Assembly: GCF_002914585.1 (NCBI RefSeq)
Contig: NZ_PDDM01000009.1
Span: 1-64,000, forward strand
DNA length: 64,000 nt
Direction of reading: 5' to 3'
From: Pseudanabaena sp. BC1403
GTDB lineage: Bacteria > Cyanobacteriota > Cyanobacteriia > Pseudanabaenales > Pseudanabaenaceae
In this document: positions 195 through 5,362 of the stretch, in pieces
Layout of the letters: the number at the start of each line of letters is the position of its first letter
Position numbering within the stretch: position 1 is the first letter of the stretch
Notes under the pieces: model-generated
Database searches by the model: none
Told to the model about the DNA's origin: nothing
What the model saw: only the letters and a program-made list of their open reading frames with translations
Position numbers and translations under genes: made by a program

Positions 195-230
195 AAAAAA
201 GCACCCTAACCACATTGGTTAGAGTGCTTT
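195..230 (-). terminator. Intrinsic terminator of the small-peptide pair
   Basis: Read on the minus strand, a GC-containing hairpin (arms AAGCACTCTAACC and GGTTAGGGTGCTT) is followed by a run of T. It lies about 20 bp downstream of the last of two 30-codon ORFs on the same strand, which supports those ORFs being a transcribed unit. Confidence 0.75.
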
Positions 231-251: not shown

Positions 252-344
252 TTAATAACTGTAAGCGGCGTTGGTTGCGACAAAGATTGCGATCGCACAA
301 CCCAAAAACTTAAAAGAAAAAATCAAGATTTGAAAAATATCCAT
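252..344 (-). CDS. 30-aa single-span membrane peptide A
   Basis: Short ORF of 30 codons, starting MDIFQIL and ending NAAYSY. The central part is hydrophobic and looks like one membrane helix after a Phe-Lys-Phe motif. It aligns without gaps to the next upstream ORF (363-455), sharing 11 of 30 residues including FKF, IA and NA at the same positions, so the two are tandem paralogues. No clear Shine-Dalgarno sequence precedes it, only 18 nt separate it from the upstream ORF, and a terminator follows. I compared it from memory with known small PSI, PSII, cytochrome b6f and NDH subunits and could not match it. Function unknown. Confidence 0.5.
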   Translation of the reverse strand: MDIFQILIFSFKFLGCAIAIFVATNAAYSY

Positions 345-362
345 TTTGGGAGGGGAGAACAA

Positions 363-455
363 TTAAAGGGTTGAGACTGCATTTGCCAAAACTAAAACGG
401 CGATCGAACCAGCGTAGAACTTGAAGATAAATCCGCCGAAGTGAAATACTGACAT
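363..455 (-). CDS. 30-aa single-span membrane peptide B, paralogue of A
   Basis: Thirty-codon ORF beginning MSVFHFGGF and ending NAVSTL, first of a two-gene unit with the 252-344 ORF. It has the same length, the same FKF motif at residues 11-13 and the same C-terminal Asn-Ala as its neighbour. The predicted product is one short hydrophobic helix. The ribosome site is weak (GAGCAG ahead of the ATG). Paralogy, shared strand and a downstream terminator are the evidence that it is real. Photosynthesis genes abound in this genome, so a small thylakoid subunit is possible, but nothing in the sequence proves it. Confidence 0.5.
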   Translation of the reverse strand: MSVFHFGGFIFKFYAGSIAVLVLANAVSTL

Positions 456-4509: not shown

Positions 4510-4629
4510 TTAGCTAGCAGATCCGAGTCCAACGTAGGAACCATAAAAGAATAGGCCGACAACAACCAGTACGCCAGTACCAGCAACCGTGGCAACTAGC
4601 CAAAGCGGAATACGTCCATTTTGAAGCAT
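4510..4629 (-). CDS. psbJ: Photosystem II protein J
   Basis: 39-aa single-span PSII subunit. The sequence matches PsbJ throughout: [20 protein letters not shown] then [12 protein letters not shown]. PsbJ sits near cytochrome b559 and the QB-plastoquinone channel and affects PSII assembly and electron flow. Last gene of psbE-F-L-J. A good Shine-Dalgarno (GGAGG) lies 9 bp upstream of the ATG. Confidence 0.97.
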
Positions 4630-4677
4630 GAATTAAACCTCCAAATAAAAATGATTTTTATGAAATGAATTGCAAAA

Positions 4678-4794
4678 CTAGTTGAAGAAATAGCTGGAAA
4701 AAAGTAGAACAGTCACGAAGATTAGCAGTAGTCCCAAAAAGAGAGAAGTACGGTTCAACTCTACAGGTTGGCTGTTAGGATTTTTAGGAGCCAT
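4678..4794 (-). CDS. psbL: Photosystem II protein L
   Basis: 38-aa single-span PSII subunit, N-terminal [14 protein letters not shown] followed by the hydrophobic helix and SSYFFN, an unmistakable PsbL. PsbL lies at the PSII dimer interface and is needed for QA function. It is in the psbE operon order, but it is separated from psbF by 85 bp holding a purine-rich tandem repeat, and the repeat's complement occupies the place of its ribosome site. Confidence 0.97.
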
Positions 4795-4806
4795 AGGTAG
4801 GGGGGA

Positions 4807-4841
4807 GGTAAAAGGAAAAAGGTAAAAGGAAAAAGGTAAAA
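4807..4841. repeat. 14-bp tandem repeat between psbF and psbL
   Basis: Two and a half exact copies of GGTAAAAGGAAAAA. The tract lies inside the psbEFLJ operon just ahead of the psbL start. On the coding strand it is a pyrimidine run, so no purine-rich ribosome site is visible there. Confidence 0.85.
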
Positions 4842-4879
4842 GTTTTGTTTTAAAAAAGCAAAACTGAAATGGGTTTCAA

Positions 4880-5014
4880 TTAGCGGCTGATGAATTGCAT
4901 AGCTGCGATCGCGCCGATGAAGAACACGGTAGGAACTCCTAGACCGTGAACTGCTAGCCAGCGGAAAGTGAATACGGGATATTGGATGGGTTGATTAGGA
5001 TTATTGCTTGCCAT
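4880..5014 (-). CDS. psbF: Cytochrome b559 subunit beta
   Basis: 44-aa Psb[21 protein letters not shown] then a single membrane helix ending MQFISR. The His in AVHGLGVP is the axial haem ligand, paired with the His of PsbE. Second gene of the psbE-F-L-J operon. Confidence 0.98.
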
Positions 5015-5119
5015 AGTTATTAATTAGTAGATGCGTTGATTTTGGTTGTTAATTTGGAGTCGTTAATTTAGAGCTTAAGTTTATATCTACAAAATTAACG
5101 AAATGCTTTGAGCCAAGCA

Positions 5120-5362
5120 CTATTTACCCATTTGAATATCTTTGGCGGGATTGTAGCGATCGGTTACAAGAGGTGCGGTCTGACGATCTTGAGCGTAGTA
5201 CTCGTTGGGTCGTGGTGTGCCAAATACGTCATAAGCTAAGCCTGTGCTTACAAATAGCCAACCTGCCAAAAACAACGCAGGAATGGTAAGGCTATGGATT
5301 AGCCAATAACGAACGCTAGTAATAATGTCGGAAAATGGGCGTTCTCCAGTAGTACCTGCCAT
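5120..5362 (-). CDS. psbE: Cytochrome b559 subunit alpha
   Basis: 80-aa PsbE with the expected N-terminus ([18 protein letters not shown]), the haem-ligand His in [10 protein letters not shown] and the lumenal [10 protein letters not shown] segment. Together with PsbF it forms cytochrome b559, essential for PSII assembly. First gene of the operon. The start is preceded by GAGG. In many cyanobacteria ycf48 and a rubredoxin gene lie directly upstream. Here a divergent acetyltransferase and two hairpins do. Confidence 0.98.

Follow-up and report, generated by a model that had tools for sequence, protein, structure and literature searches.

The window, the whole stretch of 64,000 nucleotides analysed here, forms the beginning of contig C9 in its own genome, Pseudanabaena sp. 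BC1403 (G000). Near its beginning, two open reading frames of equal length lie head-to-tail, as the first-pass annotation had pointed out; the strand, which it had left unstated, is the minus strand. The upstream frame encodes peptide A (MSVFHFGGFIFKFYAGSIAVLVLANAVSTL; 363–455, 30 residues plus stop) and the downstream frame its paralogue, peptide B (MDIFQILIFSFKFLGCAIAIFVATNAAYSY; 252–344, also 30 residues plus stop), with a gap of 18 nt between the A stop and the B start in this copy. The two peptides are identical in register at 11 of 30 positions, the same count as originally given, and this value was matched by 12 of 100,000 shuffles of B; the test was made on a single selected pair and takes no account of how many ORF pairs a window contains, and taken alone it would be modest evidence of paralogy. 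The terminator that had been noted right after the second frame consists of a 15-pair stem and a T-run (198–230, minus strand) and closes the A-B unit. B folded together with this terminator gives −43.1 kcal/mol (z −5.28). The terminator could be aligned in 13 units, the window's among them, and a scan around the locus found a terminator-like site on one strand only.

The region upstream of A contains a series of further elements on the same strand. A degraded Shine-Dalgarno sequence, AGAG, is located at 464–467, and its duplex energy is −2.2 kcal/mol compared to a mean of −7.7 kcal/mol. A putative −10-like box, GACACT, follows at 498–503, for which GATACT is the commonest form in relatives, and an ATCAC half-site at 526–530 places its TCAC end 22 nt before this box. 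Farther up are a proximal CRP-type site, TGTGATCAAATTCAAA (547–562), with 9 of 10 consensus bases and its centre at about −63.5, and a distal CRP-type palindrome, AGTGATCGCAATCACT (570–585), with 8 of 10 consensus bases and its centre at about −86.5. A 32-base near-perfect palindrome (562–593), seen as an opposite-strand self-match, surrounds the distal site and exceeds what an operator needs.

Relatives of A are found mainly within the genus. With E≤1e-5, the window peptide A used alone as a single-sequence query has matches in 19 of the 26 genomes of the genus, its own included; the tally of the same search at E≤1 is 25 of 97 genomes, some by chance. A profile search (profile A1) detects the peptides in 20 of the 38 genomes of the taxonomic family (E≤0.1) and in 20 of the 388 genomes of the class (E≤0.01), the latter belonging to 2 of 160 genera, and since this profile contains sequences from genomes that it then found, the independent count is that of the single-sequence search (19 of 26). 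On these counts, the family is nearly confined to the genus Pseudanabaena. The A start occurs in eleven named stretches; apart from one record of Phormidium tenue and one of an uncultured cyanobacterium, they come from Pseudanabaena strains or bins. The profile finds no copy in 7 of the 26 genus genomes, two of which are only 76–82% complete, and the peptides are therefore dispensable. Outside the genus, G029 carries two 30-residue ORFs arranged in the A-B style, 61 nt apart. This genome contributed a row to the original profile; with a profile lacking it, the first ORF is retrieved with an E-value of 0.0033 among 18,172 ORFs (0.58 against window A alone), and the second 30-residue ORF, a Shine-Dalgarno sequence and a CRP-type site matching 9 of 10 bases provide further support.

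Tandem A-B pairs are present at 16 loci, including a second pair on contig C18 of the same genome. A has 30 residues at all listed loci except in G003 (31 residues), and B has 30 at all 16 tandem loci. The genomic settings vary: 12 of 30 loci are positioned just downstream of a gene cluster that contains what we take to be a sulfite-oxidase-like gene, the others lie beside differing genes, and no neighbour is common to all copies, so that a function derived from the neighbours is unsupported. A phage or plasmid origin was also considered and set aside, as a tblastn search with one A peptide against phages and plasmids gave no match; one DNA pattern, searched exactly against viral contigs, gave none either.

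The pattern of substitutions is that of protein-coding sequence. Among nine A genes of the commonest type, which were our own choice, 2, 0 and 16 of 29 columns vary at codon positions 1, 2 and 3, respectively. The corresponding numbers are 14, 10 and 27 for 24 A genes, and 20, 15 and 26 for 16 B genes, and pN/pS is 0.275 for 23 distinct A sequences and 0.377 for 15 distinct B sequences. One close pair of B genes (G018 and G008a) differs by one synonymous and three non-synonymous changes. Judged by these substitutions, A and B are real genes, A is under strong purifying selection, and B is a faster-evolving, less stable and less constrained paralogue. Since the selection covers nearly all of A, the constraint suggests a fixed binding surface. 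The first-pass annotation had proposed that conservation with synonymous changes would support the pair, and the relatives, the codon-position counts and pN/pS agree in showing it. The opposite outcome that it had named, a lack of homologues or the presence of frameshifts and stops, does not apply to A but applies in part to B, which carries a frameshift in the draft genome G009, is interrupted in the second G008 copy, and is not found next to several of the A genes.

A profile built from 12 A peptides retrieves 9 of the 16 B genes among 18,172 ORFs, with E-values from 6e-5 to 0.05; window B scores 0.17, and the remainder are weaker or unlisted. Because an A-only profile recovers B genes, and because tandem pairs occur at 16 loci, A and B are, on this profile evidence, homologous, and the original description of a paralogous pair holds.

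In a 22-row alignment of the peptides, Met1 and Lys12 are invariant, and Phe9, Phe13, Ile18, Leu21, Asn25 and Ala26 are nearly so. The two peptides are strongly hydrophobic (GRAVY 1.47 and 1.40), and AlphaFold2, run on A alone as a single sequence, predicts one helix spanning residues 4–29 with a mean pLDDT of 93.4, a result expected for such a sequence and uninformative on partners. The earlier label of membrane peptides thus stands as a prediction from hydrophobicity and a single predicted helix, but not as an observation. Searches of 22 members against Pfam and NCBIfam at E≤1 yielded only chance-level matches of single members, consistent with the earlier remark that neither peptide resembles a small photosynthetic or NDH subunit. 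No PDB chain matched at E≤10, none of the PHROG families fits, and the single Rfam match is far below its gathering score; identity with a known family was rejected on the basis of the Pfam, NCBIfam, PHROG and PDB results. The peptides resemble small photosynthetic subunits such as PetN (29 residues), PetL and PsaM in their length of about 30 residues, their one hydrophobic helix and their cyanobacterial origin. However, those subunits are conserved across cyanobacteria, whereas the A/B family is nearly restricted to one genus, dispensable and multi-copy, lacks a Pfam or NCBIfam match, and has a CRP-type promoter. A core gene for a small photosynthetic or NDH subunit is ruled out by the presence of the family in 20 of 388 class genomes and 2 of 160 genera. 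The family and its cassette, with the repeated CRP-type promoter, look new, small one-helix membrane proteins being known as a kind. In the literature searched, which left most subscription papers beyond reach, we came across no account of these peptides.

The two genes differ markedly in their translation signals. An anti-Shine-Dalgarno duplex of −6 kcal/mol or lower precedes 25 of 27 A genes but 0 of 16 B genes, compared to 9% of random 20-mers, and the mean duplex energies are −7.7 kcal/mol for A and −0.5 kcal/mol for B. The B start lies 12–19 nt past the A stop at the 16 loci, and coupling of B translation to that of A would be the natural reading, although Shine-Dalgarno-independent starts exist. 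The window copy is one of the two exceptions to the strong A Shine-Dalgarno sequence, with both of its ORFs intact. With only AGAG left of this sequence (−2.2 kcal/mol) and GACACT as its −10 box, the window copy may be expressed weakly. Good signals are present in the C18 copy of the same genome, namely a Shine-Dalgarno duplex of −8.5 kcal/mol and a GATACT −10 box. The degraded signals of the window copy, the second copy and the regulatory module that the loci share are all additions to the first-pass annotation.

The copies have in common an upstream sequence, despite their differing neighbour genes, in the order palindrome(s), ATCAC, an A-rich stretch, GATACTA, AGGAGCAA and ATG. According to the accessible text of PMC2633013, the cyanobacterial CRP consensus is TGTGAN6TCACA, with the −10 element about 22 bp downstream. 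At least 9 of the 10 consensus bases are matched at 18 of 30 loci and at least 8 at 27 of 30. The corresponding shares are 0.3% and 7% in 2,336 control windows, most of them coding DNA, and 0.6% and 9.5% after dinucleotide shuffling. A GATACT-like −10 box is recognisable at 27 of the 30 loci with a loose pattern, which was relaxed between the first and the later count and so admitted two more loci; the second copy of G011, G017 and G029 fall outside the 27. The TCAC end is exactly 22 nt before the −10 box at 24 of these 27 loci, and at 24 of 27 at least one site matching 8 bases or more has its centre at −63.5, −86.5 or −87.5 (11, 12 and 6 loci, respectively). At −41.5, none of the 27 loci reaches 8 of 10 bases, and a half-site alone is present. 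As the loci share descent, the conservation of sites across them is not independent. The promoter alignment omits G029, G017 and one identical row, and alignment A2 (22 rows) further drops G004, the first and third copies of G005, the second copy of G011, and G015.

At the sequence level, the locus shows both marks of a CRP/FNR-type unit, namely an upstream site at promoter-like spacing and a CRP-type protein encoded in the genome. The latter (L092), which contains an RETVTR helix, matches solved structures of the CRP family, including E. coli CAP, and a CRP-type protein at least 91% identical is present in 25 of 26 genus genomes, the missing one being an 82%-complete genome. We take L092 to resemble SyCRP1, and presume that a general recognition-helix rule applies to its RETVTR helix. 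Since seven CRP/FNR-type helix-turn-helix proteins pass the cut-off in G000, L092 is one candidate regulator of A-B among several. The genome as a whole shows no excess of perfect TGTGAN6TCACA sites (5 places, compared to 3 for the reversed pattern), GTGATCNNNATCAC is found 5 times, including once before window A, compared to 2, and the ORFs adjoining the other sites form no coherent regulon as judged by eye. In the accessible text of PMC2633013, SyCRP1 targets such as slr1667 of Synechocystis have TGTGAN6TCACA operators and a −10 element that follows the proximal element at a distance of about 22 bp, as in A/B. In contrast to these targets, A/B have the half-site alone at −41.5 together with one or two full sites further up, and they are orphan peptides that this text does not mention.

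The promoter is not restricted to A-B pairs. A model derived solely from the sequences of 22 promoters was searched over 38 family genomes, its weak matches being probably due to chance. Among 20 match regions examined, out of a much larger number, 7 precede a gene for an 81-residue protein, 6 precede a peptide that we designate class C, and 7 precede neither or a broken copy. Class C peptides have 27 residues, begin MTExTIGGFIFKSYA, and are A homologues without the last three residues, under the same type of promoter (L128, L129, L131, L132, L134 and L136). They are placed in nine genomes by the matches, with sequences seen for seven; position 12, the invariant lysine of A and B, is glutamine in 4 of these 7. 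The class C profile (A3) includes two A rows, and its 19 of 388 genomes mostly counts A. The 81-residue family (MI(L/F)NSLNQVRSIVINT...) is represented in G000 by L140 (C16:48460–48702) and L141 (C39:33469–33711). It is soluble-looking and unrelated to A/B, with a layout of operator and −10 box like that of the peptides, and it occurs in 42 of 388 genomes, including 24 of 26 of the genus. NCBIfam and PDB searches gave no match for it and Pfam a chance-level one only; in some distant relatives, the common domain is followed by FRG-type repeats. A class C gene lies upstream of the 81-residue gene on the same strand in G014 (212 bases) and G020 (319 bases), and the promoter model matches between the two genes with an E-value of 2e-5 in G014 and, weakly, 0.19 in G020. 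At L130 (G010:C55:198167–198299), the promoter is intact but the A-like reading frame that begins behind it terminates within a few codons, and by its sequence this locus is a decayed cassette. The promoter is also kept before ORFs other than this broken peptide.

The reading that we favour, with slightly more belief than doubt, is that of a lineage-specific cassette in which a pair of homologous microproteins, each with one membrane helix and probably accessory to a membrane partner, is placed under CRP-type control. The CRP-type operators, −10 box, A, B and terminator would form a self-contained unit. Bound to operators about 22–23 bp apart, an activator of the CRP/FNR family would switch this unit on; the conserved CRP-type protein, acting in response to cAMP, is the likeliest one. 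The strong Shine-Dalgarno sequence would then drive the synthesis of much A, and B, which lacks one, would be made at a lower level by coupling or reinitiation just after A. Both peptides would be inserted as single helices, with Lys12 predicted to lie near the membrane surface, and would act as accessory or regulatory subunits that adjust or complete a membrane partner. Several findings count against this proposal: several genomes have lost B or carry it in broken form, the window copy lacks a good Shine-Dalgarno sequence and a consensus −10 box, an A-like peptide is broken at L130, Lys12 is replaced by glutamine in four of the seven class C peptides, and the sites are not enriched genome-wide. 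KdpF, CydX and MgtS of enterobacteria are single short helices, regulated by condition, that modulate a membrane partner. They serve here as a working analogy: A and B would likewise be single short helices, but they form a tandem paralogous pair and have no Pfam or NCBIfam match.

The main rival, which we judge unlikely, is that A and B are type I toxins, small hydrophobic membrane peptides that are silenced by an antisense RNA and are tandem, multi-copy and movable. Type I toxin families such as Ibs and Ldr are short, hydrophobic peptides in tandem or multiple copies with a patchy presence. A and B resemble these families and the MsoT1 candidate, which the accessible text of PMC12390103 reports as a first cyanobacterial type I candidate, in their size (below 60 residues), hydrophobicity and one predicted helix, their tandem and multiple copies at differing places, and their absence from some genomes. 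They differ in their strong protein conservation with synonymous change, in their activator-type promoter, and in an mRNA start that has no unusual structure (z +1.1, +0.6 and −0.5 for three A regions), for which reason a structured mRNA around the A start was rejected. The strong Shine-Dalgarno sequence at most loci, the confinement of the terminator-like site to one strand, and the lack of an Rfam match above threshold also argue against a toxin. No sigma-70-like promoter was found on either strand of 1–900, a weak argument, as the scan also misses the inferred A promoter.

The remaining alternatives are less attractive. A secreted or processed peptide, which we regard as improbable, would explain the likeness to a short signal peptide, a hydrophobic stretch followed by ANA or TNA that we take to be a cleavage motif, with the C-terminal tetrapeptide (e.g. 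VSTL or AYSY) released as a signal; the Asn-Ala at 25–26 is nearly invariant and most A rows end in LSTL, VSTL or ISTL, but class C homologues end at 27 residues without this tail, and no neighbour gene accompanies all copies. Likewise improbable is a dual-function transcript whose 3' end, carrying UCUCC before the terminator, would base-pair with Shine-Dalgarno sequences in the manner of a small RNA. In 21 of 36 units, UCUCC occurs no more than 60 nt past the last stop, compared to a background of 4%, a few of the 21 lying inside other features such as B remains or the terminator stem. Yet the 3' region ahead of the terminator is no more conserved (0.62) than the third positions of B (0.60), and pairing with the unit's own Shine-Dalgarno sequence has a probability above 0.5 in just 2 of 21, so that such self-pairing was rejected. 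That the frames are chance ORFs or leaders in a conserved but untranslated RNA or regulatory element is strongly disfavoured and barely credible: the small size and the likewise conserved upstream region would allow it, but the commonest A type varies mainly at the third codon position (2/0/16), synonymous substitutions dominate, and the A genes keep 30 codons at all but one locus and a Shine-Dalgarno sequence at 25 of 27.

A wider form of the cassette reading, possible but doubtful in our view, is that one fixed three-position CRP-type promoter has been copied before several orphan genes (A-B pairs, class C and the 81-residue family) as movable 'operator-microprotein' cassettes, which would constitute a lineage-specific cAMP regulon, with A and B in an unequal heteromeric membrane assembly. 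The peptides represent a conserved, unnamed and probably membrane-located family of 27–30 residues, at the lower size limit of known cyanobacterial proteins, and they come with a candidate regulator open to testing. In the accessible text of PMC5126843, PetN, at 29 residues, is the shortest annotated conserved cyanobacterial protein, and genes of such size are often left unannotated. The common promoter provides a handle for finding the rest of a CRP-type regulon in the genus, and for learning in what condition the peptides are produced.

Two other features of the window were observed near the pair. Ten other contigs of G000 carry the first ~90 bases (1–90) again, at 13 places in all and with 99–100% identity, and these places are contig ends wherever the position can be told; for this reason, a multi-copy repeat, perhaps the end of an insertion sequence, probably broke the assembly there. 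About 4 kb upstream of the peptides, on the same strand, four small ORFs lie in a row (4510–5362, minus strand), which we take to be psbJ, psbL, psbF and psbE.
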